This document shows, piece by piece, positions 3,028 to 52,897 of a DNA stretch of 64,000 nucleotides. Source of the DNA: Maribacter polysiphoniae (GTDB taxonomy: Bacteria > Bacteroidota > Bacteroidia > Flavobacteriales > Flavobacteriaceae). The DNA lies in the NCBI RefSeq assembly GCF_003148665.1, contig NZ_QGGQ01000004.1, forward strand, positions 62,001 through 126,000, written 5' to 3'. A program made the position numbers and the translations under genes. The notes under the pieces are model-generated. The model had not been told where the DNA came from. It did no database searches and was given only the letters and a program-made list of their open reading frames with translations. The first letter of the stretch is position 1; each line of letters opens with the position of its first letter.

Positions 3028-3038
3028 ACCAGATACTT

Positions 3039-4313: not shown

Positions 4314-4338
4314 TATCTACATTGCAGAATAAAACAAA

Positions 4339-4360
4339 AGGTCAGAGACAATCTAGACCT
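4339..4360 (+). terminator. Weak hairpin after the M20 gene
   Basis: AGGTC (4339-4343) pairs with GACCT (4356-4360) around a 12-nt interior that includes a further AGA/TCT pairing, followed by GAATTTTAAG. Short stem and poor T-run make this only a possible terminator. Confidence 0.3.
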
Positions 4361-4395
4361 GAATTTTAAGATTATTAAGTCATAATTAATTACTC

Positions 4396-5970
4396 ATGGA
4401 TTCTTTTCTTAGTGTTTTAGGTAATATTTCTTGGTGGATGTGGATGCTTATCATCATATTGATCGTAGCCATCCGGGATATTTTTTTTCAAAGTGCCCAT
4501 ACCATTTCGCATAACTTTCCGATTGTGGGGCATTTACGTTATTGGTTGGAAAGTATTGGCCCGGAAATGCGACAATATTTTGTGGCGAACAATCGGGAAG
4601 AACTACCCTTTAACCGTATAGAGCGAAGTTGGATATATGCCTCCGCCAAAAGGGAGAACAATTATGAGGGCTTTGGAACGGACAGGGATATTTACGCCCA
4701 CCAACATATCTTCGTAAAAAACCAAATGATGGCCTATAAGATCGGGCCTGACCATCCCAACGCCAAGGACAAATGCTTTTTGCCCTGTGCCAAGGTCATC
4801 GGTAGTTACAACAAACGCAGAAAACCATTTAGACCGGGATCGGCCATAAATGTATCCGCAATGAGTTTCGGTTCGCTTTCCGCAGCGGCGGTTGAATCCC
4901 TGAACCTAGGTGTTGCCAAAGCCGGAGCCTACCATAATACAGGGGAAGGAGGCCTATCACCTTATCATAAAAAAGGAGGGGATATCATTTTTCATTTCGG
5001 GACGGGTTATTTTGGTGTTCGTAGTGATGACGGTAATTTCTCCATGGAAAAATTAAAGGTATTGGTCAATGAAAACCCATGTATCAAAGCCATTGAAATT
5101 AAACTTTCACAGGGTGCCAAGCCTGGTAAGGGCGGTGTTCTACCAGGTGCCAAGATAACTCCGGAAATTGCTAAGATCAGAGGGGTTGAAGTGGGCAAGG
5201 ATGTCCTCTCCCCTGCCACCCACAAAGCTTTTGACACCATTCCTGAGCTGCTACAACTCATTGAGGATATTGCAGAACAAACTGGATTACCTGTTGGGGT
5301 AAAGGGAGCGATAGGAAAATTGGACCAGTGGGAAGCATTGGCCGATCTTATGATCAAAACAGGCAAAGGACCTGATTTCATTACGGTAGATGGAGGTGAA
5401 GGTGGCACAGGTGCTGCCCCACCGAGTTTTGCCGATCATGTATCACTTCCCTGGGTATACGGATTTTCAAGCCTGTACAAAATGTTCTTGGACAAGAAAT
5501 TAACCGATAGGATTGTTTTTATCGGGAGCGGAAGACTGGGATTCCCCGCCAAAGCCGCTATGGCCTTCGCTATGGGCGTAGACTGCATCAATGTTGCCCG
5601 AGAGGCCATGATGAGCATTGGATGCATCCAAGCACAGGTTTGCCATACCAACCGGTGTCCGTCTGGAGTGGCCACACAAAATAAATGGCTTCAAGGCGGT
5701 ATTCATGTACCCCTTAAATCGGACCGATTGGCACAATATTTCAAGACTTTCAGAAAAGAACTGATTGAAATTACCCATGCAGCGGGTTATGAACACCCTT
5801 GCCAATTTACCATGGATGATATACAAGTCAATGTTGATGATGATTTCTTACATAGTGACCTAAAATCAACATACGGATATGAAAAATCGAAAGTACCTTT
5901 CAAAAGCATGCATGAACTATATGCTTGTGAATTCTTAGGTGGACAAGATTTTCATGACATTCCCAAATAG
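4396..5970 (+). CDS. Membrane-anchored FMN-binding glutamate synthase family protein
   Basis: This 524-residue protein is a single-domain relative of the glutamate synthase large subunit synthase domain, as found in many Bacteroidota. One transmembrane helix lies at about 11-31 (MWMLIIILIVAIRDIFF), with the catalytic domain expected in the cytoplasm. The barrel has NVSAMSFGSLSAAAVESL near 150, GEGGLSPYH near 178, VDGGEGGTGAAPPSF near 334 and the 3Fe-4S cysteine cluster IGCIQAQVCHTNRCPSG near 409-425. There is no glutaminase domain, so it would depend on free ammonia or have another reaction; family function is unsettled. Confidence 0.88.
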   Translation: MDSFLSVLGNISWWMWMLIIILIVAIRDIFFQSAHTISHNFPIVGHLRYWLESIGPEMRQYFVANNREELPFNRIERSWIYASAKRENNYEGFGTDRDIYAHQHIFVKNQMMAYKIGPDHPNAKDKCFLPCAKVIGSYNKRRKPFRPGSAINVSAMSFGSLSAAAVESLNLGVAKAGAYHNTGEGGLSPYHKKGGDIIFHFGTGYFGVRSDDGNFSMEKLKVLVNENPCIKAIEIKLSQGAKPGKGGVLPGAKITPEIAKIRGVEVGKDVLSPATHKAFDTIPELLQLIEDIAEQTGLPVGVKGAIGKLDQWEALADLMIKTGKGPDFITVDGGEGGTGAAPPSFADHVSLPWVYGFSSLYKMFLDKKLTDRIVFIGSGRLGFPAKAAMAFAMGVDCINVAREAMMSIGCIQAQVCHTNRCPSGVATQNKWLQGGIHVPLKSDRLAQYFKTFRKELIEITHAAGYEHPCQFTMDDIQVNVDDDFLHSDLKSTYGYEKSKVPFKSMHELYACEFLGGQDFHDIPK

Positions 5971-39341: not shown

Positions 39342-40151
39342 TTACAACTTATAATGATTCAATAACAGCTTCTCATAGGCTTTATCGGGTAAAGTCCGTT
39401 TAAGGAAAATAGAGAACTTTTGCATAAATGAACCCACCTTATAATGCACTTTGGGATTTTTGGTATTTATAATACGGTATACTTTTTCGGCCACCTGAAT
39501 GGGATTATTGCCCGAAGAAACATCATCATTGATCGATTGCAAGGTTTTCCCGTATGCATCCTCATATGGGGAGCCTTTTAAAACCGGTGCATGATATCTT
39601 CCGCTGGCTATGTTCGTCGCAAAATCACCAGGAGCCAAATTGGTCATTCGTATGCCGAAATTCCTGGTTTCCATTCGAAGCGCCTCCGTCGTAACTTCCA
39701 AAGCACCTTTGGTAGCTGAATAAATGCCGCGATAAGGTAACCCCATATAGCCGGCAATGGAGGTTATATTGATAATGAGTCCGTCCCCCTGCTTCCGCAT
39801 TTGGGGCAAAACAGCCTTTATCATATGCAATGGGCCATGGAAATTGGTCTCAAAGGTTTTAAGAATCTCTTCGTGTGGGGTTTCTTCTATCGGGCCTGTT
39901 ATTCCCACACCTGCATTATTGACCAACACATCCAACCGACCTTCCTTTTCTATAAGTTGGGAAACAGCCTTTGCAATCGTACTTGTATTCCTAACATCCA
40001 ACTCCAGGAGGTCAAAATCACTGAAATCAGGGTATTTAGCCAGATTCCTTGTTGTTCCGTAAACTTTAAATCCTTTGGATTTCAATAAATTTCCGATGGA
40101 TTTCCCTATTCCAGAAGAGCCTCCCGTTATAAGAACTACTTTTTGTTCCAT
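39342..40151 (-). CDS. Short-chain dehydrogenase/reductase
   Basis: 269-residue classical SDR using NAD(P). Cofactor motif TGGSSGIG at 8-15, NNAGVG near 89, catalytic Ser in NITSIAGYM near 131 and YSATKGA near 144 with the Tyr and Lys. The C-terminal portion ([38 protein letters not shown]) resembles SDRs that act on lipophilic substrates, but the substrate is not known. No signal peptide. Confidence 0.9.
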
Positions 40152-40280
40152 ATAAGTTATAGATTAAGTTTTAAAAAAAGGTCTGGTAAAAAGCGATTTA
40201 CATAGAAGCCTAAAGTACAATGACAATATGGTCCGAAAATCAAATACACGCTTTTTATGAAAAATGAAGGTATAAAAAAA

Positions 40281-40376
40281 CGGCAAGCTACCTACATCGC
40301 ACCGCTACAACCATATACCCTTGCTGCGTTCCCACCCTGGGGGATTCTACAGGAGCTGGTCGTGTAGGACTTGCCG
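40281..40376 (-). ncRNA. ffs: Signal recognition particle RNA, small bacterial type
   Basis: The minus strand folds into one long hairpin closed by CGGCAAG (40376-40370) and CTTGCCG (40287-40281). Near the loop it has CCCAGGGTGGGAACGCAGCA, matching the conserved SRP domain IV features: a GNRA-like tip and the asymmetric AGCA loop that bind Ffh. About 96 nt, typical of 4.5S RNA. With Ffh and FtsY it directs membrane and exported proteins to the translocon. A U-run (TTTTTTT) after the closing stem makes the RNA its own terminator. Confidence 0.9.
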
Positions 40377-40380
40377 AATG

Positions 40381-40410
40381 CAAATATACAATCTTTTAAA
40401 ACTTTTTCAA
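40381..40410 (-). promoter_or_regulatory. Bacteroidota promoter for the SRP RNA
   Basis: Minus strand TTG (40410-40408), 19 bp, TATATTTG (40388-40381): an exact consensus. A start 5 nt below places transcription at the first base of the closing stem. Confidence 0.8.
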
Positions 40411-40525
40411 TCGTTTTATATTCTAATTTTAATGAATTAACTTGCCTTTTTTATTGATATTCCTAAGTGTTTCTAATAGAGAATAATACAGTCGGGAATA
40501 CCTAAATCAACAAATAAATATATTC

Positions 40526-41569
40526 ATGAATCTTATTAAGCTTACCTCTTTTAGTTTTCTCCTACTGCTATTCATGTCCTGTGGCAGTGGCAATACCAAG
40601 GCAACTTCTTTATTCGAAATTCAATTGGAAGGCAATAAAACGGATTTCAAACAACATCAAACCGTAAGTGTCGGCATTAAAAACAAGAAGGAGAAATCAA
40701 TCAATTCGGTAACCTATACCATTGATGGCAAGGAACTCGAGGTTAAGGAAAACAAAATTACATTTGACCTTACGACTTTGGGGGCCAAGACCCTTAAGGC
40801 CACTGTCGATTATGATGATACCCGTATCGATGTTTCAAAGAAAATAAAAGTATTGGCGCCTACCCCTCCTGCCCTATACACCTATGAAATCATAAACGAA
40901 TTCCCTCACGACATCAAGGCATATACCCAAGGTTTGGAATTCCATGATGGCATACTCTATGAGAGTACCGGAAAAAAAGGAAGGTCTTCTTTAAGGAAGG
41001 TCGATTTTAAAACCGGGGAAATCCTAAAACAAATACGCCTTGAGGATTCCCAGTTTGGCGAAGGAATCACGATTATGAACGGTAAGATATACCAGCTTAC
41101 TTGGCAAAATGGAATTGGATTCGTGTATGACTTGGAGAAATTCGAGAAGATAGACACTTTCCAATATGGGGAAAGCAAGGAAGGCTGGGGACTATGCCAT
41201 AATGGAAACAAAATATTCAAAAGTGATGGTACCGAAAAGATTTGGTTTTTAAATCCCGATACCTTAGCCGAAGAGGGCCATATTGAAACAGTGACCAATA
41301 AATCGGTATTCAACATGGCCAATGAACTGGAGTATTTGGATGGGAAGATCTATGCCAATGTTTACCAAAAACCAAGCATGATGATTATTGATGCACAAAG
41401 TGGAGCCATTGAGGGCGTCATCAATTTCGGTGGTTTAAAGGAAAGGGTCACCAAACACCAAGAACTGGATGTGCTTAACGGGGTAGCTTATCATCCAGAA
41501 CGAAAAACCTTCTTTGTAACAGGCAAAAACTGGGATAAAATGTTCGAGGTAAAAATCATCAAAAAATAA
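40526..41569 (+). CDS. Glutaminyl-peptide cyclotransferase lipoprotein
   Basis: Glutaminyl cyclase of the plant/bacterial (beta-propeller) type, which converts N-terminal Gln to pyroglutamate. 347 residues. Lipobox LFMSC puts the lipidated Cys at 19. Residues 25-110 are an immunoglobulin-like spacer. The propeller starts at YTYEIINEFPHDIKAYTQGLEFHDGILYESTG near 115-145 and has the family motifs ITIMNGKIYQLTW and MANELEYLDGKIYANVY. It begins a probable operon: the thioesterase start overlaps its stop by 1 nt. Confidence 0.9.
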   Translation: MNLIKLTSFSFLLLLFMSCGSGNTKATSLFEIQLEGNKTDFKQHQTVSVGIKNKKEKSINSVTYTIDGKELEVKENKITFDLTTLGAKTLKATVDYDDTRIDVSKKIKVLAPTPPALYTYEIINEFPHDIKAYTQGLEFHDGILYESTGKKGRSSLRKVDFKTGEILKQIRLEDSQFGEGITIMNGKIYQLTWQNGIGFVYDLEKFEKIDTFQYGESKEGWGLCHNGNKIFKSDGTEKIWFLNPDTLAEEGHIETVTNKSVFNMANELEYLDGKIYANVYQKPSMMIIDAQSGAIEGVINFGGLKERVTKHQELDVLNGVAYHPERKTFFVTGKNWDKMFEVKIIKK

Positions 41570-41964
41570 TGGAGTCCTACGAAAAGAAAATAATTGTCTC
41601 CCAAGCAGATCTAGACGACCTAAACCATGTGAACAACGTGCGTTATGTTCAATGGATCCAAGATATCTCTAAAGAACATTGGCAATCTACCGCTCCTAAA
41701 GAAATGCAGGCAGGTATACTCTGGGTCGTCAAAAACCATAATATCGATTATCTCAGTTCTGCCGTCTTAGGTGACGTAATTTTAGCCAAAACCTTTATAG
41801 CAAGCACAAAAGGAGCCATTTCGGTGCGTTGTGTGGAAATGTACAATGATAAAACGAATGAGCTTATAGTCCGTTCCGTTACAGAATGGTGCCTGCTCAA
41901 TGCGATGACCCTAAGACCGATCCGCATTTCAGAGAAAATCCAAAAGGTCTTCCTGAGCGATTAA
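41569..41964 (+). CDS. Hot-dog fold acyl-CoA thioesterase
   Basis: 131-residue cytoplasmic thioesterase of the 4-hydroxybenzoyl-CoA/YbgC group. VSQADLDDLNHVNNVRYVQW at 10-29 is the signature in which the Asp and neighbouring residues act in hydrolysis, followed by LWVVKNHNIDYLSSAVLGD and SVRCVEMYNDKTNELIVRS. Substrate unknown. It overlaps the glutaminyl cyclase gene by 1 nt and is followed 17 bp later by the beta-helix lipoprotein. Confidence 0.88.
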   Translation: MESYEKKIIVSQADLDDLNHVNNVRYVQWIQDISKEHWQSTAPKEMQAGILWVVKNHNIDYLSSAVLGDVILAKTFIASTKGAISVRCVEMYNDKTNELIVRSVTEWCLLNAMTLRPIRISEKIQKVFLSD

Positions 41965-41981
41965 ACGGAAAAACCAAAACT

Positions 41982-43505
41982 ATGCAGCGGATCGTATTCC
42001 CAATTTCTGCCTTGATACTTATAATGGTATGGAGTTCGTGCAGAAATGATTTCGAGTATGCATACAACCCTGGTAATTTGGAGTTTTCAAAGGATACCGT
42101 TTTTCTTGATACCGTTTTTTCCAACATATCGAGCAGCACCTACACCTTAAAGGTATACAACCCCAACCATGACGACATAGAAATTCCTTCCATCCGACTA
42201 AAACAGGGGCAAAACAGTGCTTATCGACTTAATGTAGACGGCATGGCAGGAAAGGAATTCACGAATATACCCATCCTGGCCAAAGACAGCCTTTACATAT
42301 TTGTTGAAACCACCTACAGCCCCACCAATGATGGGAAGCAATTTTTATATACCGATGCTATTGCGTTTAAGGGACTATCGAGCACCCAAGAAGTGCAATT
42401 AGTCACTTTGGTAAAGGATGCGATTTTACGATATCCCAAAATATTGGAGAATGGTATCAAGGAAACCCACCCTTTGAATATGGATATCGATGGGAACCAA
42501 AATAATGTAGAAGGATTTTTTTTAAAGGATGATGAATTGATATTCACCAATGATAAGCCCTATGTAATCTACGGGTATGCGATAGTTCCGGAAAACCAGA
42601 CCTTACAGGTCAATGCGGGAGTCAGGATCCATTTTCATGAAGGTTCGGGGATATATGTTTCTAAGGGAGCTTCCCTACATATCAATGGTACGTTAAGTTC
42701 TTCCCAGGACATCTTGGAAAACGAGGTTATTTTTGAAGGAGATCGACTAGAACCCGAATATTCGAATGTTCCTGGGCAATGGGGTACGATTTGGATTGCA
42801 GAAGGAAGCCTAAACAACACCATGGAACATGTAACGATCAAAAATGCTACAATCGGCACCATTGTTAAGGGTGATGGACAACGACAAACCTCAAGCCTAA
42901 CTATAAATAACACCCAGATTTATAACTCCTCCTTCACCAATCTACAGGCAATAAACACCTATGTTACGGGGGAAAACACCGTATTAGGGGGTGCGGGTGG
43001 CAATTCCCTACACTGTTCCCGTGGTGGTCGCTACGAATTCACCCATTGCACCATTGCGAATTATTGGTCACATGGTTCAAGATTGGGAACGGCTTTAAAA
43101 ATAGATAACTATGATTCCACCACTTCAGGGGATTTGGTTTTGGCCCAGTTCAATAATTGTATCATTGATGGTAGTGCCCCAATCGAAATATCATTACATC
43201 CTAACGAGGCCAATGCTTTTAATTTTACTTTCGACCATTCCCTTATAAAATTTGAGGATACTTCTGGGCAATACAAAAACAATACTTTGTACGATTTTAA
43301 CGACAACACCAAGTACACTGAAGTCCTTTTTAACCAAAACACTGATTTTGAAGGATTTAATCGTGATGTATATCAATTAGGTGAGGCTTCATCAGCCATT
43401 GACAAGGCTGATTTGGCATATTCCTTACCTATTCCTTATGATATCATTGGTACGGAAAGAACCCAAAATCCGGATATTGGGGCATATGAATACACTCCCA
43501 AATGA
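41982..43505 (+). CDS. Lipoprotein with right-handed parallel beta-helix
   Basis: 507 residues from the ATG of MQRIVFPISALILIMVWSSC (lipidated Cys about 20). A longer frame overlapping the thioesterase has no signal and is discounted. Residues 25-180 are an Ig-like or adhesin-like region (FLDTVFSNISSSTYTLKVYN). Residues 200-480 contain parallel beta-helix turns (GVRIHFHEGSGIYVSKGASL; NTMEHVTIKNATIGTIVKGD; QTSSLTINNTQIYNSSF), as in surface polysaccharide-binding or cell-surface proteins. Ends with DIGAYEYTPK, a tail I have seen on related flavobacterial proteins. Substrate unknown. Confidence 0.8.
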   Translation: MQRIVFPISALILIMVWSSCRNDFEYAYNPGNLEFSKDTVFLDTVFSNISSSTYTLKVYNPNHDDIEIPSIRLKQGQNSAYRLNVDGMAGKEFTNIPILAKDSLYIFVETTYSPTNDGKQFLYTDAIAFKGLSSTQEVQLVTLVKDAILRYPKILENGIKETHPLNMDIDGNQNNVEGFFLKDDELIFTNDKPYVIYGYAIVPENQTLQVNAGVRIHFHEGSGIYVSKGASLHINGTLSSSQDILENEVIFEGDRLEPEYSNVPGQWGTIWIAEGSLNNTMEHVTIKNATIGTIVKGDGQRQTSSLTINNTQIYNSSFTNLQAINTYVTGENTVLGGAGGNSLHCSRGGRYEFTHCTIANYWSHGSRLGTALKIDNYDSTTSGDLVLAQFNNCIIDGSAPIEISLHPNEANAFNFTFDHSLIKFEDTSGQYKNNTLYDFNDNTKYTEVLFNQNTDFEGFNRDVYQLGEASSAIDKADLAYSLPIPYDIIGTERTQNPDIGAYEYTPK

Positions 43506-43580
43506 TTGTTTGTTGCATATTCTTCCCTATAAATAGGTGTTTTCCTTCAAATTAAAATATTTTTATACATTACAAACACA

Positions 43581-43638
43581 AACCTTATTTATTATAAGGT
43601 TTTCCTATGTCCATGGTTCCCCGACTATCATAACTTTG
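43581..43638 (+). promoter_or_regulatory. Composite regulated promoter of the LytTR gene
   Basis: AACCTTAT (43581-43588), 5 nt, ATAAGGTT (43594-43601), then TCCTATGTCC (43603-43612), 18 bp, and an exact -7 box TAACTTTG (43631-43638). The GTCC end lies where a -33 TTG should be. The same arrangement stands before the gene at 48264, with identical dyad arms. It reads as an activator site feeding a weak -33 promoter. Confidence 0.65.
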
Positions 43639-43660
43639 CTATTGACAAATAGCTAATACA

Positions 43661-44404
43661 TTGGAATTCAATTACTCCATTATCGATTCTGACGCCACCT
43701 CCAATCTGCAACTGCAGCATTTTTTGGAGGAATACGGTGATTTTTCGTGCTCTTCCTTGGCTAAAAATAGTAACGACGGTCTAAATGCAATTTTAAAATA
43801 TTCCCCCGACGTCGTTTTTGTGAACCTGAATGAAAATGCCTCCGAATATTTTCAAATGGTCATTGAACTTCACCAGTATGTCAAGAAATTACCGGTCATC
43901 ATTGGTATATCCAAAACAAAGAATCATGCCTATGAGGCCATTAAAAATGGTTTTTTCGATTATTGGTTGAAACCCTACAATGAATTCGACATACGAAAAT
44001 CCTTGCTGCGCCTTAAAAAGCAAATGCCCGAAACTACTCCCGTCCATTCCCAAGCCGCAACGATTTGTTTAAAATCATACCGGGATTTCCAATACTTGAA
44101 CACGAATGATATTCTTTACCTGCAAGCCGATAACAACACCACGGAATTTGTGATGAAGGATGGAAGCGTTGTCAATGCTTTCAAAACCTTGAAAACATTT
44201 GAAAACCAATTACCTCCGAATTTCATACGAATCCATCAGAGTTATATTATCAATACCATCTTCATTTCAGGTATCAGTTATGGAAAATCAGTGTGCACCT
44301 TAAAACTTAGAAACCTACAACTACCCTTTTCGAAGTCGTATAAAGCGAATATCGATGAGGTAAAGAATCTTTTATCAAAAACCGCGATTCTTTCCAATAA
44401 TTAG
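43661..44404 (+). CDS. LytTR-family regulator with a pseudo-receiver
   Basis: 247 residues. Residues 4-120 have a response-regulator receiver fold with the acidic pair IDSD at 8-11 and the conserved Lys in WLKPYNEF near 107, but the phosphoacceptor strand reads PDVVFVNLN with Asn at 55 in place of Asp. The LytTR DNA-binding domain (about 138-240) has ILYLQADNNTTEFVMKDG and FIRIHQSYIINT. The start is a TTG; an in-frame stop lies just upstream and the promoter supports a short leader. It probably does not depend on phosphorylation. Confidence 0.88.
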   Translation: MEFNYSIIDSDATSNLQLQHFLEEYGDFSCSSLAKNSNDGLNAILKYSPDVVFVNLNENASEYFQMVIELHQYVKKLPVIIGISKTKNHAYEAIKNGFFDYWLKPYNEFDIRKSLLRLKKQMPETTPVHSQAATICLKSYRDFQYLNTNDILYLQADNNTTEFVMKDGSVVNAFKTLKTFENQLPPNFIRIHQSYIINTIFISGISYGKSVCTLKLRNLQLPFSKSYKANIDEVKNLLSKTAILSNN

Positions 44405-44548
44405 GTGAATTCTCTCAAAACTGGTTCGAATACTCCTCAAACAATGCCAAATACTCATACTTTTTAAAATACTCTATCTTACTCTTGGGGTCTTATTAGT
44501 TTTACAACGTAATAAAAAAGAAACCCCTAACAAAAATTATTTAAGATT

Positions 44549-45040
44549 ATGAGAAGAGCACTTAGTATTTTAGCAGTATTGGCCTTAATGATTGGATCAA
44601 TGGCAATGATCAATGTAAATGACACCCAAGATCAAGACACAATAACTTGTGACGACTGTGCCCATACCAAAGACAGAAGAAAGGAAAAAGTGGCATCGGC
44701 AACTTGTGACGACTGTGCCCATACCAAGGACAGAAGAAAGGAAAAAGTGGCTTCGGCAACTTGTGACGACTGCGCCCATACCAAGGACAGAAGGAAAGAA
44801 CAATTGGCTTCGGCAACTTGTGACGACTGTGCCCATACCAAGGACAGAAGAAAGGAAAAAGTGGCTTCGGCAACTTGTGACGACTGCGCCCATACCAAGG
44901 ACAGAAGGAAAGAACAATTGGCTTCGGCAACTTGTGACGACTGCGCCCATACCAAGGACAGAAGGAAAGAACAATTGGCTTCCGCAACTTGTGACGACTG
45001 CGCCCATACAAAAGACAGAAGAAAGGAAAAAGTGGCATAG
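44549..45040 (+). CDS. Secreted 19-residue-repeat protein (CDDC repeats)
   Basis: 163 residues: a signal peptide (RALSILAVLALMIGSMA, about 1-20), a short acidic spacer (NVNDTQDQD), then seven tandem 19-residue repeats, each with CDDCAHT followed by KDRRKE and either KVASA or QLASA. Every repeat has two Cys, one His and a basic segment, so the mature protein carries 14 Cys in CxxC pairs. Metal binding, disulfide cross-linking or processing into small peptides are all possible; I recognise no family. It is flanked by a LytTR regulator and a two-component pair. A strong terminator follows. Confidence 0.75.
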   Translation: MRRALSILAVLALMIGSMAMINVNDTQDQDTITCDDCAHTKDRRKEKVASATCDDCAHTKDRRKEKVASATCDDCAHTKDRRKEQLASATCDDCAHTKDRRKEKVASATCDDCAHTKDRRKEQLASATCDDCAHTKDRRKEQLASATCDDCAHTKDRRKEKVA

Positions 45041-45157
45041 GCAGCTTGTAACGATTGTATCCACACAAAAGACAGAAGAAAGGAAAAAGTGGCATAGGCA
45101 GCTTGTAACGATTGTATCCACACAAAAGACATAAGGAAAGTAAAAAGTATAGTCTAG
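44645..45157 (+). repeat. Nine-copy 57-bp tandem repeat
   Basis: Copies start every 57 bp from 44645 to 45101. Copies 1-7 form the repeat protein. Two sub-types alternate: one with AGAAGAAAGGAAAAAGTGGC (copies 1, 2, 4, 7) and one with AGAAGGAAAGAACAATTGGC (copies 3, 5, 6). Copies 8 and 9 lie after the stop; copies 7 and 8 both end in a TAG where the earlier copies have TCG. The mosaic suggests unequal crossing-over or gene conversion. Confidence 0.9.
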
Positions 45158-45221
45158 TGGTATATTAGCAACTCAAGAGCTATTGAACAAAGAAGGTATA
45201 AAATAAAGTTCCTTCAAAACA

Positions 45222-45258
45222 AAAAAGGTCTTAGTCTTACAAAGATTAAGACCTTTTT
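45222..45258 (+). terminator. Strong intrinsic terminator after the repeat gene
   Basis: AAAAAGGTCTTA (45222-45233) pairs perfectly with TAAGACCTTTTT (45247-45258), loop of 13 nt, ending in a T-run. It stands only 18 bp before the start of the histidine kinase gene. Confidence 0.85.
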
Positions 45259-45276
45259 GTTTACATTAGTGTCACC

Positions 45277-47349
45277 ATGCTTAAAACCAATCTACCACAA
45301 TCACCCCCATTGACCAAATGGCTTTTGCATATCCTATTATGCGCTGCCTTAGGCTCTTGCACTCTGCCCAACACCAAAACCGAAGCTCCCCAAACCATTG
45401 CAAATGATAGTATTTTAAGCTGGATATCCCTTGGGAGTAATTCCGAAATGCCCCTGAAGCAAAAAAACGAATTACTAAAAAAAGCATATATAGCGGCAGA
45501 CAAAAGCACCATTGATAGTGCACGAATAAAATATTATTCCAGACTTTCATTGGCCTATTTGGAACTAAATGATTCCTCTTTGTTTCGTTCGGTCAACCAT
45601 AAAGCAATTTCAATATCCAAAAAGTTGAATGATACGGTTGCTGAAGCCAATGCCCACTGGGATTTGGCTGACTTTTTTGATACAAAAATGGTAAAGGACA
45701 GTTCCTTTTACCATTATTCCGAGGCGCAAAAAAAATATGAATCCATTGGGGACAAATATCTATCGGGAAGAATGTTTTTCAATATGGCAGTACTCCAAAC
45801 CAATGTCAAGGATTATACAGGTGCGGAAATAAATGCCTTTAAGGCCATAGAAAGGTTAAAGCCCTTGGATGAATATCTAAGACTCCACCGCTGCTATAGT
45901 TTATTGGGTTCAATCACAAAGGAACTCAAGGAATATGAACGATCCCTCGAATATTTTAACCTAGCCGAGGAATACCTTTCTGAAATAGACGATGAAAAAA
46001 CCAAAAAAAATTTCTATTCCAGATTACAGAACAACATTGGTAACGTCTATAAAGATCAAGGGAATTACAAAGCCGCTAAGCGATACTACCAAAAAGCTAC
46101 ATTGAACCAAGATAGTTTACAGTTCAATCAACCTTCCATCTACGCCTTACAATTTAACAATTTAGTCCTCAGCCGCTTTAAACTGGGAGATACCTTAAAT
46201 GTTTTCAAGGATTTGGAAACCGTTAAACAGATTCGGGAAGAACAAAACGATATTGAAGGGCTTTCGTTAGTCGAATATACGTATGCAGAATACTATTTAT
46301 CGTTGAAAGACACGGTAAATGCCATGGTAAGTGCCCGACATGCAATGCAACACGCGGAGCAGGGATCCAACAACAAAAGGTTGTTGGCCTCATTGGGATT
46401 GTTGGCGCGCATCGATCCCGAAAATTCATTGAAACATACGGAAAGGTATATTGCCTTATACGATAGTCTTGTTCAACTGGAACGACAGGAACGCAATAAA
46501 TTCACACGAATACGTTTCGAAACCGATGAGTTTATCGCAGAGAATGAATCCCTAACCCGAAAAAAACAAATATGGACAGGCTTGGCATTAGGTATTTTCC
46601 TGCTTGGGGTATCCGTTTATGTGATTTTCCATCAGCGAGCAAAAAACCAAGCCTTACGTTTTCAACAGCAACAACAGACCAGTAACCAAGAGATATTCGA
46701 TTTAATGTTGTCCCAAAAGCAAAGAATCGCCGAAATAAAGAAAGCCGAGCAAAAACGAATTTCCGAAGAATTGCACGATGGGGTCCTAGGGAAAATGCTG
46801 GGGGCTAGAATGGTGCTTACCGGATTGAACAAAGTCAGCACGGAGGAAGCACTATTGGAAAGGGCTAAGGCAATAGCCGCACTAAAGGACGTTGAAGGTG
46901 AAGTACGTGCCATTTCCCATGAATTAAGTCACGCTGCCTATCATAACATAAACAACTTCATCACTTCCATTCAAGAATTACTCAAGAATGTATGTACGCT
47001 GAATCATCTTGAATATTCTTTCCAATATGATGAATCCCAAGATTGGGACACAATGAAAGGTGACATCAAAATCAATCTATATCGTATGATCCAAGAGATT
47101 TTACAAAATGCAGTCAAACACGCATCTTGTAAGAATATTTTGGTTAGTTTTGTACGAACAAATGAGGAGATTATCGTGACCATTACCGATGACGGAATAG
47201 GGTTTGTATCAAAATCGGGCAAAACCAAAACGGGTATAGGTATGCGAAACATCAGATCAAGAGTAGAAAAACTCGGCGGTACTTGGGAAATTGATAGTGT
47301 TATAAACAAAGGAACGACGATTACTTTGAATATACCGCTTAAAAATTAA
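45277..47349 (+). CDS. TPR-containing sensor histidine kinase (HisKA_3 type)
   Basis: 690 residues. An N-terminal signal ends in the lipobox ALGSC (Cys28). Residues 45-400 are TPR-like helical repeats lying outside the membrane (NIGNVYKDQGNYKAAKRYYQKA). One transmembrane helix is at about 431-450 (IWTGLALGIFLLGVSVYVIF), followed by a coiled coil, HisKA_3 with phospho-acceptor His500 in RISEELHDGVLG, and HATPase_c (ILQNAVKHA; DDGIGF; GIGMRNIRSRVEKLGG). It senses something in the periplasm and phosphorylates a partner. The NarL-type regulator 69 bp downstream is the natural one. Confidence 0.93.
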   Translation: MLKTNLPQSPPLTKWLLHILLCAALGSCTLPNTKTEAPQTIANDSILSWISLGSNSEMPLKQKNELLKKAYIAADKSTIDSARIKYYSRLSLAYLELNDSSLFRSVNHKAISISKKLNDTVAEANAHWDLADFFDTKMVKDSSFYHYSEAQKKYESIGDKYLSGRMFFNMAVLQTNVKDYTGAEINAFKAIERLKPLDEYLRLHRCYSLLGSITKELKEYERSLEYFNLAEEYLSEIDDEKTKKNFYSRLQNNIGNVYKDQGNYKAAKRYYQKATLNQDSLQFNQPSIYALQFNNLVLSRFKLGDTLNVFKDLETVKQIREEQNDIEGLSLVEYTYAEYYLSLKDTVNAMVSARHAMQHAEQGSNNKRLLASLGLLARIDPENSLKHTERYIALYDSLVQLERQERNKFTRIRFETDEFIAENESLTRKKQIWTGLALGIFLLGVSVYVIFHQRAKNQALRFQQQQQTSNQEIFDLMLSQKQRIAEIKKAEQKRISEELHDGVLGKMLGARMVLTGLNKVSTEEALLERAKAIAALKDVEGEVRAISHELSHAAYHNINNFITSIQELLKNVCTLNHLEYSFQYDESQDWDTMKGDIKINLYRMIQEILQNAVKHASCKNILVSFVRTNEEIIVTITDDGIGFVSKSGKTKTGIGMRNIRSRVEKLGGTWEIDSVINKGTTITLNIPLKN

Positions 47350-47418
47350 AAATCCAACCCAAGATGCCCCTTGGAAAACAAAATTGACACACAATAGAAT
47401 TGTACTAATAGACGGAAA

Positions 47419-48090
47419 ATGAAGATTGTACGACTTTTATCGGTAGATGACCACGCCATGACGGCCATGGGTTATAAATACATCCTGGAAGGTGCGGAAT
47501 TCGATGGCTTTCAAGTTAAGGTAGATACAGTGAATACTTTTGAAGGGGCTATTGAGAAGATTGACTTTTCGCAACGATCTTTGCCTTATGATATTCTTTT
47601 ATTGGACATATCCCTTTTTCCTACACATTCCAACGACACTAGAAGTGGTGAAGACCTTGGGATATATGCAAGGGAAAAAGTCCCAGCTTCGAAAATCGTC
47701 TTCATGTCATCATTTAGTGATAGTTACCGTATCAACAGTTTATTCAAAACCGTTGACCCTGATGGGTATATGGTAAAATCGGAAATAGATGAAAAATCAC
47801 TTTGCGCAATGGTACGAACCGTTTTGGAAAGACCGCCCTATTACACCGCAAGTGCCCTATCTGCGATTCGAAAGAAAATGGCCAATGACTTTGACCTGGT
47901 AGATGAAACCGATAAAAAAATCCTACACTATATCTCTACCGGAACCCGTACGAAGGATATAGGCCCTATTATATCGGTCGCCCCCACAACAGTGGAATCA
48001 AGAAAAAGGCAATTAAAACAACTTTTCGGTATTGAACACGGTAATGATATCGAACTTATTGAGGAGGCCAGAAAACGCGGATTCATATAA
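47419..48090 (+). CDS. NarL/LuxR-type response regulator
   Basis: 223 residues. The receiver domain has the acidic pair VDDH at 9-12, phosphoacceptor Asp63 in DILLLDIS, switch Ser in FMSSFSD and Lys in YMVKSEID. The C-terminal LuxR-type helix-turn-helix is at about 160-218 (DKKILHYISTGTRTKDIGPII; TTVESRKRQLKQLFG). All residues required for phosphorylation are present, in contrast to the nearby LytTR protein. Partner of the upstream kinase; its DNA targets may include the shared dyads in this cluster, by inference only. Confidence 0.92.
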   Translation: MKIVRLLSVDDHAMTAMGYKYILEGAEFDGFQVKVDTVNTFEGAIEKIDFSQRSLPYDILLLDISLFPTHSNDTRSGEDLGIYAREKVPASKIVFMSSFSDSYRINSLFKTVDPDGYMVKSEIDEKSLCAMVRTVLERPPYYTASALSAIRKKMANDFDLVDETDKKILHYISTGTRTKDIGPIISVAPTTVESRKRQLKQLFGIEHGNDIELIEEARKRGFI

Positions 48091-48116
48091 TCCCAGTTTT
48101 TTAACATTTTATTTCA

Positions 48117-48151
48117 TTTTTTAAATAACTAATAATCAGCTATTTAAAAAA
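48117..48151. repeat. AT-only 11-bp inverted repeat
   Basis: TTTTTTAAATA (48117-48127) and TATTTAAAAAA (48141-48151) are exact reverse complements with a 13-nt spacer. The stem is all A/T, so it is a poor terminator; it could still end the response regulator transcript or be a protein site. Confidence 0.5.
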
Positions 48152-48173
48152 CAAACTGCATTTTATAAAGGAC

Positions 48174-48232
48174 AACCTTATATTTCATAAGGTTATCCTA
48201 AGTCCTGTTTTATAGACATACCGTTAAATTTG
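48174..48232 (+). promoter_or_regulatory. Second copy of the composite regulated promoter
   Basis: AACCTTAT (48174-48181), 5 nt, ATAAGGTT (48187-48194), then TCCTAAGTCC (48196-48205), 19 bp, and an exact -7 box TAAATTTG (48225-48232). Dyad arms are identical and spacings match the copy at 43581-43638 within 1 bp. Confidence 0.65.
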
Positions 48233-48263
48233 AGGTCAATTGTAATTCAAATAGCCCTAATCA

Positions 48264-48905
48264 ATGTCTACAGCCCCCGAAAATTCTAGAAACAACTTTC
48301 CCAAAAGGCGAGCACAAAGTGCTTCCTTTAGGGGACTTTCCGCATTTACCAATAATCTTGAAAAATTCTTTTTTTCAGAAATCTCAATACGGAATAGCGC
48401 GACAAACGACAATAAGATCAGTTTGATTATCGATTTGAATTGTGATTTGAATTTACTCGATTTGGTCATAAACTCCTATAAGGGTACATGGGGAACATTC
48501 AACCAATGCAAATACTCCCTAGCGAATGAATTGGCATTATTAGAGCAGTACAATGACATTCCTTTCGACGTTGAAGAGTTTTCCATCAACCTAAAGGACA
48601 CAAGTATAATCATAAACAAAATATACGAACAAAGTATTTCCGCCCATTTGGATGCGGTTATAAGTAATCTGGAAAAACACTACGTTCAATTAACCAAAGG
48701 AAATGTTGAAGTTCCTTATGAAATTTTCATGGCTGTTTTTGAGGATGACATTTTAACACCCGATTTTGCCAGTAGCCAAACAAAAAAGACCCATAACTAT
48801 ACAAGCTATTGGGCCTTATATTTTGAATCCGAGCAAGATGCCGTTATTTACGACCTTAAGAACAACAGGTTTATCTATGAGGATTTACATATGATAAACG
48901 AATAG
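48264..48905 (+). CDS. Protein of unknown function, co-regulated with the LytTR gene
   Basis: 213 residues, no signal peptide or transmembrane helix. The N-terminal 40 residues are basic and polar (RNNFPKRRAQSASFRG). The rest is acidic with helical stretches (DVEEFSINLKDTSIIINKIYEQS; SAHLDAVISNLEKHYVQL) and a beta-rich end (YWALYFESEQDAVIYDLKNNRF). I recognise no family. The gene has its own copy of the composite promoter, which ties it to the cluster. It converges with glyA across 8 bp. Confidence 0.7.
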   Translation: MSTAPENSRNNFPKRRAQSASFRGLSAFTNNLEKFFFSEISIRNSATNDNKISLIIDLNCDLNLLDLVINSYKGTWGTFNQCKYSLANELALLEQYNDIPFDVEEFSINLKDTSIIINKIYEQSISAHLDAVISNLEKHYVQLTKGNVEVPYEIFMAVFEDDILTPDFASSQTKKTHNYTSYWALYFESEQDAVIYDLKNNRFIYEDLHMINE

Positions 48906-48913
48906 TCTGTCTA

Positions 48914-50188
48914 TCAGGCATTGTACAAAGCCCTATCTTGCATTAAAGCGTTTACCTCAATCTTAACCTGAGCTATTACATCCTCATTTTCGGCATTGGC
49001 AAGAACGCGATCGATGAAATCAACTATAGTCGACATTTCGTCTTCCTTTAACCCACGTGTAGTAATCGCTGCTGTACCAAATCGTATTCCAGAAGTTACA
49101 AATGGTGATTTATCATCGAACGGAACCATATTCTTGTTAGCCGTAATATCCGCCTTTACCAACACTTTTTCCGCATCTTTTCCTGTAATGTCCTTATTAC
49201 GCAAATCGATCAACATCATATGGTTGTCGGTTCCCCCTGAAATAATATTATATCCTTTTGCAACAAATGCTGAAGCCATGGCTGCCGCATTTTTCTTGAC
49301 CTGTAGCATATAATTCAAGTATTCATCGGTCAATGCTTCTCCAAAAGCAATGGCCTTTGCCGCAATAATATGTTCTAACGGTCCACCTTGGTTACCAGGA
49401 AAGACAGCCAAATCCAACAATGCGGACATCTTTCTCAAATTTCCATTCTTCAAACGAATTCCAAAAGGATTGTCAAAATCCTGCCCCATTAAAATCAATC
49501 CACCCCTTGGGCCACGCAAGGTTTTATGGGTCGTAGTGGTTACAACATGACAATGTGGAATCGGATCATTAAGTATGCCTTTTGCAATTAAACCAGCTGG
49601 GTGTGCTATATCTGCCATAAGGATGGCATCAACACTATCCGCGATTTCACGAAAACGTTTAAAATCCATATCACGGGAATAGGCAGAAGCTCCGGCTATG
49701 ATCAAATTTGGTTTTTCCTTTAACGCGATTTCCTGAATAGCATCATAGTTAAGTACGCCTGTCTCGGCATCCACACCATAAAATACGGGATTGTACAATC
49801 TTCCCGAAAAATTAACGGGTGAACCATGGGTTAAATGTCCTCCATGTGAAAGGTCAAATCCTAGAATCTTGTCACCAGGTTTTAAAAATGCGTGGAAAAC
49901 CGCGGCATTTGCTTGCGACCCCGAATGAGGCTGGACATTGGCATAGGTTGCCCCGAATAATTCCTTTGCCCTATCAATGGCGATTTGCTCAACTTGATCT
50001 ACTACTTCACATCCTCCGTAGTATCGTTTCCCAGGATATCCTTCGGCATATTTGTTGGTCAATACCGAGCCAGCGGCCTCCATTACCTGGGGACTGGTGA
50101 AGTTCTCTGAAGCTATAAGTTCAATACCGTTCAATTGTCTTTGTTTCTCAGCTTCTATTAAATCAAAAATGAGATGGTCACGTTGCAT
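48914..50188 (-). CDS. glyA: Serine hydroxymethyltransferase
   Basis: PLP enzyme that interconverts serine and glycine with tetrahydrofolate, the main source of one-carbon units. 424 residues from the ATG of [15 protein letters not shown]; a 12-residue upstream extension is discounted because it lacks family similarity. Motifs: [17 protein letters not shown] near 22, [15 protein letters not shown] near 44, [13 protein letters not shown] near 87, and the PLP Lys of [13 protein letters not shown] near 224. Cytoplasmic, apparently monocistronic, divergent from fahA. Confidence 0.97.
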
Positions 50189-50232
50189 ATTTTCTTTTAT
50201 GTTAAATGAGCCGTAAAAATACAAATTGCCAA

Positions 50233-50261
50233 TTGGTTATTGATGGAAAATAATATATTTG
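50233..50261 (+). promoter_or_regulatory. Bacteroidota promoter for fahA
   Basis: TTG (50233-50235), 18 bp, TATATTTG (50254-50261), an exact consensus -7. The ATG is at 50300. Confidence 0.65.
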
Positions 50262-50299
50262 ATTTGGAATTTATCAAATACAAATTAACAATTTGAGAT

Positions 50300-51601
50300 A
50301 TGGAGATACTTGCGAACAATCCTAATAGAAAAACTTGGATACCCACCCCGGAAAATACCGACTTTCCAATACAGAACATACCCTTCGGTGTTTTTTTAAC
50401 CCGGGATGATATTATCACCATAGGCACCCGGATCGGTGATACTGCCATAGATTTAGGGGCAATGCACCAATTGGGGTATTTTGATGGAATTCCTTTGACC
50501 GATGATATTTTTCTGCAAGACACCCTAAATGATTTTATCTCTGACGGACAAAAAACATGGCGTTTGGTGCGTAACCGTATTAGTGAGGTCTTCGAAATCG
50601 GGAATGAGACGTTGAAAAATAATGAGAACCATAAGAACATTATTCTATTTGCCCTCAATGAAATAGAAATGCAACTACCAGTGCAAATTGGTGACTATAC
50701 CGATTTTTACTCCAGTAAAGAACATGCCACCAATGTGGGTACGATGTTCCGTGACCCCGAAAATGCACTGCTTCCGAATTGGTTACATATTCCTGTAGGG
50801 TACCATGGTAGAAGTTCTACGATCATTCCCAGTGGCATACCGATTCACAGGCCCATGGGACAAACCATGCCCAAAGGTGCGGAAAAACCCATCTTCGGCC
50901 CTTCTCGATTGGTTGATTTTGAATTGGAAATGGCCTTTATCACTACGGATGCCAATTCTTTGGGAGAGCCTATTGCCGTAGAGAACGCGGAAGACCATAT
51001 TTTTGGAATGGTCTTGTTCAACGACTGGAGTGCCCGGGATATACAAAAATGGGAATATGTTCCCCTTGGACCCTTCTTGGCCAAAAGTTTTGCTTCCTCG
51101 ATTTCCCCATGGATCGTAACCTTGGATGCGTTGGCACCCTACAGATGTAAAGGTCCAAAACAAGAACCAAAGCCTTTTCCTTATTTAGCCCTTCAAGGGG
51201 AACACAGTTTTGATATTCAATTGGAAGTGGATTTGATTACACCGGAAGGCATCCCCACGACAATTTCAAAATCGAACTTCAAATACCTGTATTGGTCCAT
51301 GGCACAACAATTGGCCCATCACACCACAAACGGTTGTAAAGTCAATAGTGGTGATATGATGGGCAGTGGAACGATTTCCGGTCCAACCCCCGATTCATAT
51401 GGGTCAATGCTGGAACTTGCATGGCAAGGCACAAAACCCATTACCTTAAAGGACGGGAGTGAACGTAAATTCATTCAGGACAATGATACCGTAGTCATTA
51501 AGGGCTTTTGTGAAAGAAACGGACATCGTCTTGGTTTTGGTGAGGTTTCCACAAAACTATTGCCTGTTTTTAATTCCAAAAAAGATAAAAAGAACATGTA
51601 A
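50300..51601 (+). CDS. fahA: Fumarylacetoacetase
   Basis: Last step of tyrosine degradation: hydrolyses fumarylacetoacetate to fumarate and acetoacetate. 433 residues, normal for the two-domain enzyme. N-terminal SH3-like domain about 1-120; catalytic domain with YTDFYSSKEHATNVGTMFRD near 133 (metal Asp and catalytic His), VGYHGRSSTIIPSG near 163, FELEMAFI near 209 and NDWSARDIQKWEYVPLGPFLAK near 239. Cytoplasmic. No other tyrosine-degradation gene is adjacent. Confidence 0.96.
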   Translation: MEILANNPNRKTWIPTPENTDFPIQNIPFGVFLTRDDIITIGTRIGDTAIDLGAMHQLGYFDGIPLTDDIFLQDTLNDFISDGQKTWRLVRNRISEVFEIGNETLKNNENHKNIILFALNEIEMQLPVQIGDYTDFYSSKEHATNVGTMFRDPENALLPNWLHIPVGYHGRSSTIIPSGIPIHRPMGQTMPKGAEKPIFGPSRLVDFELEMAFITTDANSLGEPIAVENAEDHIFGMVLFNDWSARDIQKWEYVPLGPFLAKSFASSISPWIVTLDALAPYRCKGPKQEPKPFPYLALQGEHSFDIQLEVDLITPEGIPTTISKSNFKYLYWSMAQQLAHHTTNGCKVNSGDMMGSGTISGPTPDSYGSMLELAWQGTKPITLKDGSERKFIQDNDTVVIKGFCERNGHRLGFGEVSTKLLPVFNSKKDKKNM

Positions 51602-51662
51602 AAAGGTTTTTCGTCGAAACAATACGATAATTTATCGTTTTACGTTATCAACAAACACAGTT

Positions 51663-51679
51663 TTGGCACGAGTGTTGAA
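51663..51679 (+). promoter_or_regulatory. Possible sigma-54-type -24/-12 element
   Basis: TTGGCACG (51663-51670), 4 nt, TTGAA (51675-51679). The -24 half is perfect; the -12 half has GA in place of the conserved GC. It lies 31 bp before the ATG of the lipoprotein gene at 51710. No enhancer-binding protein is seen nearby, so confidence is low. Confidence 0.3.
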
Positions 51680-51709
51680 AATGTAGTATACAACGGTAAA
51701 TTAAATATC

Positions 51710-52897
51710 ATGAAGAAACTTTTACTAGTAAGCGGAATTTTACTTTTTATGTTGTCTTGCGGCGGGGTAAAAAAGACCCAACAAGCCCTAAATACAGGCA
51801 ATTATATGAACGCCATAAACAGTGCCGTTCAAAAGTTAGCGGAAAACAAAGACAAAAAAAGCAACCAATCTTATGTGCTTTTATTGGAGGAAGCCTTTCA
51901 AAAAAACACTGAGAGGGAGTTGGAACATATTGCTTTTCTACGAAAAGACGGTAATCCCGCAAATCTTGAAACTATCTATAAAGGATACGAAAACCTAAAT
52001 CGCATTCAAGAAATGATAAAACCATTATTGCCCTTGCGCATTAATGATCAAAATAGATATGCTGAGTTTTCCCTAACCAACTATGATAGTGAGATTATTG
52101 CCACAAAGGACAAACTTTCATCGTATTTGTATGATAATGCTTTAAATCTTTTGACCAATGCCACCAACAAATACGATTATAGAAAAGCCTATGATGATTT
52201 TGATTATTTGAACGAAATTAATCCTGGCTATGGCGATACTAGGTTAAAAATGGAAGAAGCCTATCAAAAGGGCCAAGATTATGTAAAGGTAGCAATGGTA
52301 AATAATACAGAAAAGATCATTCCTGTTAAGCTTGAGGAGGAACTATTGAATTTCAATGCCTTTGGATTGGAAGACAAATGGACAAAATACCACACCAACC
52401 CCCTTTCAAACATCGACTATGATTATGATATGCAAATAGAGTTAAGGGAAATCAATATTTCCCCTGAACAAGTGAACGAAAAGCAGATCATAAAGGAAAA
52501 ACAGATAAAAGACGGTCAAAAATACCTTTTGGACAATGAAGGCAATGTTGTTAAGGACAGTCTAGGCAACAAAATAAAAGTGGACAAGTTCAAAACGGTC
52601 AAATGTAATTTTTATCAGTTCACACAATTCAAAACTGCACAAGTTGCGGGCTTTATAAGCTATTTTGACCTGGAAACGAAACAACAACTAAATTCCTATC
52701 CCCTTGCCAGTGAATTTGTATTTGAACATGTGTATGCCAATTACGACGGTGATAAAAGGGCTTTGGAAAATGAATTGGTTTCCTTGTTAAACCTTGCCGC
52801 GGTTCCGTTTCCTTCAAACGAACAAATGGTATATGACGCTGGTGAAGACCTTAAAAATCGTATAAAAGGAATTATAACCTCACACCGATTCAACTAA
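51710..52897 (+). CDS. Lipoprotein of unknown function, helical repeat type
   Basis: 395 residues. Lipobox FMLSC puts the lipidated Cys at 17. The first 180 residues are helical and TPR-like (TGNYMNAINSAVQKLAENKDKK; YDYRKAYDDFDYLNEINPGYGD). The rest is a beta-rich region that ends in conserved polar segments (FYQFTQFKTAQVAGFISYFDLE; SEFVFEHVYANYDGDKRALENE). Proteins of this layout are widespread in Flavobacteriaceae with no known role. A strong bidirectional terminator follows. Confidence 0.7.
   Translation: MKKLLLVSGILLFMLSCGGVKKTQQALNTGNYMNAINSAVQKLAENKDKKSNQSYVLLLEEAFQKNTERELEHIAFLRKDGNPANLETIYKGYENLNRIQEMIKPLLPLRINDQNRYAEFSLTNYDSEIIATKDKLSSYLYDNALNLLTNATNKYDYRKAYDDFDYLNEINPGYGDTRLKMEEAYQKGQDYVKVAMVNNTEKIIPVKLEEELLNFNAFGLEDKWTKYHTNPLSNIDYDYDMQIELREINISPEQVNEKQIIKEKQIKDGQKYLLDNEGNVVKDSLGNKIKVDKFKTVKCNFYQFTQFKTAQVAGFISYFDLETKQQLNSYPLASEFVFEHVYANYDGDKRALENELVSLLNLAAVPFPSNEQMVYDAGEDLKNRIKGIITSHRFN

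Follow-up and report, generated by a model that had tools for sequence, protein, structure and literature searches.

The window analyzed here is a stretch of 64,000 nucleotides from Maribacter polysiphoniae (NCBI RefSeq assembly GCF_003148665.1, contig NZ_QGGQ01000004.1, positions 62,001 to 126,000 of the forward strand). It contains a group of plus-strand genes that encode, in order, a LytTR regulator, a small protein with a repetitive tail, a tetratricopeptide repeat (TPR) sensor histidine kinase, a NarL-type response regulator, and a protein of 213 amino acids. The first and the last of these genes are each preceded by a composite site, in which the palindrome AACCTTAT-N5-ATAAGGTT is followed by one base, TCCTATGTCC or TCCTAAGTCC, 18 or 19 base pairs (bp), and a -7 box, TAACTTTG or TAAATTTG (Table 1). 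The original prediction, made from the window alone, described these two composites, and both are present as it stated, with palindromes free of mismatches. Comparison with relatives suggests that dimers of the NarL-type regulator probably bind tandem operators in both promoters and activate the LytTR operon and the gene for the 213-residue protein.

The palindromic unit was re-parsed because promoter alignments retain CC...GG followed mostly by a C(C)T half, and not the whole palindrome. As the alignments are read here, what is conserved is an operator whose core is GG-N4/5-CC and which frequently forms tandem pairs. Each window promoter carries two such operators of the form AAGG-N4-CCTw, 21 bp apart, the upstream one of site 1 having one half decayed. 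The earlier division into a palindrome and a separate TCCTAwGTCC box is replaced by this one: the palindrome is made up of the half of each operator that faces the other one, and the outer half of operator 2 lies within TCCTAwGTCC. The GTCC end that had been placed at -33 is present in both window sites but is not conserved in the aligned promoters of the relatives. In several relatives, a second inverted repeat, approximately GAAGG-T6-CCTTC, is observed ~40 bp above site 1; it is decayed in the window (~43530–43560) and could be a terminator or an extra operator.

The distance between operator and -7 box is nearly constant. The comparison covers 46 loci with both sites, comprising the window, 12 of 18 loci from whole-genome relatives, and 33 of 80 loci from a wider set of LytTR relatives. 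The LytTR, kinase, NarL-type, and 213-residue genes occur together in 12 of the 18 and in 34 of the 80; the other six of the 18 are two short contigs and four loci without the 213-residue gene, and one locus of the wider set (L111) was excluded, no site being found there. The GG is kept at 45 of the 46 loci at site 1 and at all 46 at site 2. Among the aligned promoters, TTTG lies 37 bp from the first G in 12 of 15 genomes at site 1 and 38 bp from it in 12 of 13 at site 2; in the remaining genomes, no exact TTTG is present at that position. Over the 46 loci, site 2 has a TAnnTTT box with its TTT 38 bp after the GG in 42, 37 bp after it in two, and no such box in two. Site 1 has TAnnTTGY with TTG at 38 bp in 29 loci, TAnnTTT at 37 or 38 bp in ten, a box elsewhere in three, and none in four. 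As a rough yardstick, a TAnnTTT or TAnnTTGY box stands at 37–38 bp for 44 of the 7203 GG anchors on both strands of the window (0.6%). In Flavobacterium psychrophilum, the accessible part of the published account places TAnnTTTG at -12 to -5 and its TAnnTTGY variant, motif SM5, at the same position (PMC9723704). Because this box position serves as the ruler, the center of operator 2 is predicted at ~-41.5 or ~-42.5 and that of operator 1 at ~-62.5 or ~-63.5. Activators that touch RNA polymerase usually sit at such positions (~-42 and ~-63). In relatives such as L066, L075, and L083, the -7 box of site 1 is of the SM5 type, TAnnTTGY in place of TAnnTTTG, and in relatives of this kind the two promoters may be served by different sigma factors.

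The exact palindrome occurs in the 5.13-Mb genome at the two sites only. A scan of the genome had been named as a check, and it found no further exact copy; the single place with one mismatch (C3:31526) lacks the remainder of the composite. With up to three mismatches allowed, the window holds two palindromes vs a shuffle mean of 0.81, and 20 of 100 shuffles reach two, both real copies being exact. Across the genome, the loose form is not enriched (88 places vs 110 for a reversed control). The rarity resides in the exact composite, and only the exact form of the palindrome is meaningful.

A 39-column profile was built from 19 sites, the own-genus part of 28 aligned sites, and these 19, the two in the window included, match it by construction. 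The window sites score 42.6 and 36.0 bits, and the next two places in the same genome 26.1 and 21.3 bits. Over 12 genomes of the genus, the known sites are the top matches in the 11 cluster-bearing genomes (best E 2e-11 to 1e-8), and G004, which is 68% complete and in which neither NarL nor LytTR gives a match of this type, yields nothing better than E 0.003. Weaker matches (21–27 bits) are observed elsewhere in the own genome (G000) and in G003, G006, and G009. Operator-like sites with a TAnnTTGY box 38 or 37 bp after the GG lie upstream of a 401-residue protein (L257, G006:C11:1166405) and a 147-residue protein (L259, G003:C138:20894), and both may be further real targets. A -7-like box at 37–38 bp after the GG is missing in four of the six weaker matches inspected, including both in the own genome (C1:111236 and C1:115602). 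The four boxless matches share AACCTTGG together with an operator-1-like half, and they lie near open reading frames that we take, from motifs, to be lactonase-like or transposase-like. The two in the own genome (L064) are operator-1-like copies upstream of two paralogous lipoprotein-like genes.

The half-sites of the two promoters change together. At the six half-site bases beside CC and GG, identity within a genome vs between genomes is 0.859 vs 0.612 over 45 loci (L118 lies outside the protein alignment), 0.855 vs 0.563 over 31 groups formed at 85% LytTR identity, and 0.841 vs 0.551 over 23 groups formed at 75%. If the two sites drifted independently, site 1 would be expected to resemble site 2 of its own genome no more than site 2 of another. 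All three tests give p = 0.00005, the lowest value that 20,000 permutations allow. At least two duplicates among the 46 loci (L058/L073 and L056/L068, the same genomes) are removed by the grouping, and site 1 of L084 and of L077 was re-anchored by hand, the profile having chosen the wrong place. Neither the loop between the arms (alignment index 14–19, p 0.13–0.29) nor the promoter spacer (index 39–55, p 0.11–0.45) shows excess likeness within a genome. Pairing of arm with arm inside one site is less strict: one of three position pairs, the one next to CC/GG, is clearly above permutation at both sites (paired in 30 and 28 of the 46 loci, p 0.0008 and 0.007). Since the half-sites co-vary and the loop and spacer do not, the pattern points to a single trans-acting DNA-binding protein of drifting specificity that would read both sites. 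The earlier suggestion of one dedicated regulator is borne out by this covariation, by the few sites of comparable score in the genus, and by the near-constant distance to the -7 box.

The identity of this protein is suggested by clusters without LytTR. A NarL-type match at E ≤ 1e-20 is found in 43 of 99 relatives, among them clusters of a TPR kinase and a NarL-type gene in which LytTR is absent. In 12 such clusters, an operator of the same kind (mostly ACGG or GCGG) lies right after the NarL-type gene; it is placed 38 bp before the TTT of a -7 box in 11 of the 12, and in five a complete second palindrome can be clearly seen 22 bp upstream of the first. In ten of the genomes (G017, G028, G030, G039, G040, G044, G046, G048, G054, and G059), LytTR matches genome-wide reach E 8e-17 at best, whereas the weakest LytTR gene within a syntenic cluster in the same search reaches 1.1e-28 (G038, L191); these operators thus occur with only distant LytTR proteins. 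In the other two, G050 and G055, a LytTR cluster is found at a different place in the genome. Because the same operator is found at the same distance in LytTR-less clusters, it goes with the NarL-type gene. The original prediction had named either the LytTR protein or the NarL-type regulator as binder, and the NarL-type regulator appears the most likely binder of both sites; LytTR is not a necessary one, as kinase–NarL clusters without it carry the same operators.

The proposed binder has marks of the NarL/FixJ type. In 26 sequences, the receiver residues D11, D63, and K120 are invariant and D10 is nearly so. The fold model of the window protein has a predicted local distance difference test score of 86.8, with helix-turn-helix helices at residues 163–173, 178–184, 189–203, and 210–220. 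Its top Foldseek matches are full-length NarL-family regulators, and the nearest PDB chains are spr1814, VraR, LiaR, and RcsB. The receiver has the acidic pair, phospho-Asp, and Lys, and the modeled fold indicates the four-helix C-terminal helix-turn-helix (GerE).

In the LytTR-less clusters, the operators are followed on their 3' side by a conserved stretch of 90–110 bases. In most loci, the predicted RNA has a UCAAC...GUUGA stem enclosing UUAAUUAAUCCCUC; a terminator-like stem comes next. Of 17 predicted pairs, eight show double-sided changes, and every one of these belongs to the terminator stem; the 5' stem hardly varies and hence carries little information. No Rfam match at the gathering score was obtained for seven of the 12 loci, these being the loci searched. 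A model of this RNA, of which the operators are not part, finds a single copy in each of 80 genomes among the 299 tested from the Flavobacteriaceae. The positive genomes represent 68 of 236 genera, and the genome of the window gives no match. Anchoring succeeded for 27 of the 30 best loci (the exceptions are L247, L250, and L255). In 26 of these 27, TAnnTTT lies exactly 38 bp from the operator, as it does in 20 of 21 when the genomes of the 12-cluster set are excluded; a NarL-type gene lies upstream in all 27, and LytTR in none within the ~3-kb stretch. The stretch immediately behind the NarL-type genes (L178–L187, L193, L194, and the 80 genomes) is described here as a putative small RNA.

Outside the clade of the window, the pattern CCNTA-N7-TAN'GG-N5-CCNTA, with 22 bp from CC to CC, is found 5' of LytTR in L096, L097, L099, L101, L103, L108, and L113. 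Palindromes of this kind lie 3' of the NarL-type gene in L095, L097, L100, L105, L106, L107, L108, L109, and L110. Both ends of the cluster carry a palindrome in five outgroup loci (L097, L106, L108, L109, and L110), and in each the type is identical at the two ends. The half-site types of the outgroups are AAGG, ACGG, or GTGG. The minimal form is a single palindrome, NNGG-N5-CCNN (L104 and L106), and L113 has two perfect palindromes 22 bp apart.

Several findings weigh against a NarL-type regulator that serves both ends of the cluster. In LytTR-bearing outgroups with one palindrome-bearing end, the palindrome is 5' of LytTR only in L096, L099, L101, L103, L104 (the contig of which stops at NarL), and L113, and 3' of NarL only in L095, L100, L105, and L107. 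No clear palindrome was found at either cluster end in the outgroups L098, L111, L112, L114, and L115, and the region upstream of a duplicate LytTR gene in L052 is without the operator palindrome. The window NarL-type protein stays under both Pfam cut-offs, with 23.0 bits for Response_reg (cut-off 30.2) and 19.6 bits for GerE (cut-off 23.5). The NarL proteins of the small RNA clusters form a separate clade, ~33–40% identical to that of the window, so that the argument drawn from them is one by homology; the tree was made by a quick method, and the small RNA label of L111 in it is based on an 8-base string and is likely to be wrong. In addition, the recognition-helix residues do not strictly track the half-site type. 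A match of these residues to the half-sites appeared suggestive (AAGG often with RKR, ACGG with RKN or RKK) and is not claimed, L108 and L192 being exceptions. Finally, the CC-to-CC period of 21–22 bp fits LytTR sites.

LytTR sites are described, in the accessible parts of two papers, as repeats of 9–11 nucleotides with a spacer of 11–13 nucleotides (PMC4847170) and as having a spacer of mostly 12 bp, with autoregulation (PMC6193735). The LytTR protein could accordingly bind both sites, reading each as direct repeats spaced by 21 bp, autoregulate its own operon, and activate the 213-residue gene, and one of the sites does precede the LytTR gene itself. The period led to an initial preference for LytTR as the binder, which was abandoned given the LytTR-less clusters. 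This alternative is considered unlikely, as genomes that lack a close LytTR still have the same operators, at an unchanged distance, beside kinase and NarL-type genes, some sites in outgroups consist of just one palindrome (L104 and L106), and the LytTR receiver lacks the phospho-Asp in the branch of the window. The palindromes might also be intrinsic terminators that belong to the preceding genes and lie near the next promoter by coincidence. Hairpins can form, and a T run follows the stem in L055, L063, L105, and L108, but a terminator scan for a GC stem with a T run lists none at 43581 or 48174. The distance to the -7 box is nearly fixed, and a terminator would not need half-sites that co-vary between separate sites while the loop does not; this explanation is very improbable. 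The arms still pair in several relatives, and an RNA hairpin was considered for that reason; the spacing, the missing T run, and the site-to-site covariation favor a DNA operator. Gene conversion between the two promoters would likewise keep the half-sites alike within a genome. A conversion tract would, however, carry the loop inside the palindrome along with the arms, and neither the loop nor the promoter spacer shows excess likeness, which leaves gene conversion scarcely credible.

Control of both promoters by the NarL-type regulator is preferred on the strength of the sites, their near-fixed geometry, their concerted evolution, and the same layout at LytTR-less NarL genes. The adjacent TPR histidine kinase would partner with the NarL-type regulator, which would be phosphorylated. 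Phosphorylated dimers would bind the two operators of each promoter, which lie 21 bp, or two helical turns, apart. The inner operator, at ~-42 and just 5' of the -7 box, would take the place of a -33 element, and the bound dimers would recruit RNA polymerase. The LytTR operon and the 213-residue gene, which bracket the system, would thereby be switched on from starts predicted at ~43643 and ~48237. The LytTR gene is then likely a target and not the binder. Its protein has Asn at the expected phospho-Asp position (VFVNLN), and His in two relatives, the mark of a pseudo-receiver in the branch of the window; judged by these residues, the LytTR protein of this branch is probably not switched by phosphorylation.

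Table 1. Operators, promoter boxes, and genes of the cluster in the window
Feature	Position	Strand	Remarks
Site 1 operator 1, AACACAAACCTT	43575..43586	+	Left half degenerate, right CCTT intact; predicted center ~-62.5; 21 bp 5' of operator 2
Site 1 palindrome, AACCTTAT-N5-ATAAGGTT	43581..43601	+	Facing halves of operators 1 and 2; zero mismatches
Site 1 operator 2, AAGGTTTTCCTA	43596..43607	+	AAGG-TTTT-CCTA intact; predicted center ~-41.5
-7 box of the LytTR promoter, TAACTTTG	43631..43638	+	37 bp from first G of GG to TTTG
LytTR regulator gene, 247 amino acids	43661..44404	+	Pfam LytTR 62.1 bits; Response_reg 25.7, under cut-off 30.2
Small protein, signal-like N terminus, seven tandem CDDCAHTKDRRKE copies	44549..45040	+	Possible peptide precursor
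TPR-containing sensor histidine kinase	45277..47349	+	HATPase_c 53.1 bits, TPR_1 31.4 bits
NarL-type response regulator, proposed binder of both sites	47419..48090	+	Receiver residues, fold model, homologues
Site 2 operator 1, AAGGACAACCTT	48168..48179	+	AAGG-ACAA-CCTT; predicted center ~-63.5
Site 2 palindrome, AACCTTAT-N5-ATAAGGTT	48174..48194	+	Facing halves of operators 1 and 2; zero mismatches
Site 2 operator 2, AAGGTTATCCTA	48189..48200	+	AAGG-TTAT-CCTA; predicted center ~-42.5
-7 box of the 213-residue gene promoter, TAAATTTG	48225..48232	+	38 bp from first G of GG to TTTG
213-residue protein, function not assigned by homology	48264..48905	+	Conserved, putative second target

By the LytTR protein, the nearest named relatives belong to Maribacter, Zobellia, and Kriegella of the Flavobacteriaceae. 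Exceptions to the gene order within the clade are extra kinase copies in L054, L056, and L071, a NarL-type gene some way off in L071, and a duplicated LytTR in L052. The tandem LytTR genes of L052 (G008, 2895–4729) are 58% and 82% identical to that of the window, and no operator palindrome lies 5' of the first. In G029 (L176 and L177), two extra NarL-type paralogs of 49–50% identity are observed, and this kinase and LytTR are missing from the fetched stretch. The window kinase scores 21.8 bits for HisKA_3 in Pfam, under the cut-off of 24. The 213-residue protein matches nothing in Pfam above cut-off, nothing in NCBIfam at E ≤ 0.01, and no PDB fold at E ≤ 0.001. A Bacteroidales small signal recognition particle RNA (RF04183, 112.7 bits) lies on the minus strand at 40277–40383 and is the sole Rfam match over positions 40000–52000 of the window.

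In many loci, most LytTR-less clusters included, the product of the gene just before the kinase is a small protein whose N terminus is hydrophobic and signal-like. In at least 12 loci, the window among them, the protein ends in a species-specific tandem-repeat tail, with units CDDCAHTKDRRKE repeated seven times in the window, CDDCAHDKDRREPKVAQ four times in L048, STDGDDVQIDRRG ten times in L066, and ATDDDEVGEPQPSNGEV five times in L084. Other proteins in this position have a single short tail, and some loci gave an implausible frame with the simple choice of open reading frame. In the window (44549–45134), the seven repeats are near-identical, and degenerate copies run on beyond the stop codon. 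The protein reaches 24.5 bits for Opy2 (cut-off 22.1) and 34.6 bits for KPN_two_small (cut-off 33) with no single stretch passing, and both matches are probably created by the repeats. Given the adjacent TPR sensor, the repeat protein is possibly a peptide precursor or signal, a guess from anatomy. A tentative extension, which we hold to be doubtful, is that the Flavobacteriaceae contain a peptide-signaling family not yet described. An exported precursor would be sensed by the kinase TPR domain outside the inner membrane, and the NarL-type regulator would fire the tandem -42/-63 operators. The outputs would have been re-wired, to a small RNA in one branch and to a LytTR pseudo-receiver operon and the 213-residue protein in that of the window, with operator specificity drifting by genus.

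The operator, the system, and the RNA were not found described in a literature search, from the coverage of which subscription papers and bioRxiv largely fall out. The sites supply an operator that can be tested for a two-component system widespread among flavobacteria, the targets of which were likewise not met with in the literature searched. The half-sites AAGG, ACGG, GTGG, and GGGG form a set of naturally occurring, matched operator changes with which the drift of regulator specificity can be studied, and the putative RNA is a candidate for a small RNA family, with copies in 80 of the 299 genomes tested from the Flavobacteriaceae. Should the repeat precursor be a signal, the system would represent peptide communication in a phylum where the search showed none.

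NarL-type two-component systems that drive small RNAs are known from GacA-RsmY/Z and similar cases. Similar to these, the sister clusters have a NarL-type gene directly before a small-RNA-like promoter with putative operators. Unlike GacA-RsmY/Z, the putative RNA adjoins the regulator gene, it has no Rfam match in the seven loci mentioned, and the outputs in the clade of the window are protein genes. Rfp18 and other small RNAs of F. psychrophilum are, like the putative RNA, conserved structured flavobacterial RNAs, a likeness judged by description only and from the accessible part of the source (PMC9723704). The repeat period of 21–22 bp is shared with LytTR operators, as far as the available text of PMC4847170 describes them, but here the units are palindromic and occur also without LytTR. 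The operator core is similar to that of the ComA box of Bacillus subtilis. ComA, which has the same kind of helix-turn-helix as NarL-type regulators, reads TTGCGG-N4-CCGCAA and tolerates N5, according to the accessible portion of PMC4797271. As in the operators described here, the ComA box is a GG-N4-CC inverted repeat that lies 5' of the polymerase site and has another element close by (PMC4797271, same portion); the core is GG-N4-CC in the window and GG-N5-CC in many outgroups and small RNA loci. The second element of the ComA box is, in that text, a direct repeat with a 5-nucleotide spacer, whereas here, where clear, it is an inverted repeat 21–22 bp away. The half-site also differs, being AAGG, ACGG, or others by clade, as do the phylum and the -7 box. 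The novelty is in the system and its re-wired outputs, not in the type of operator.

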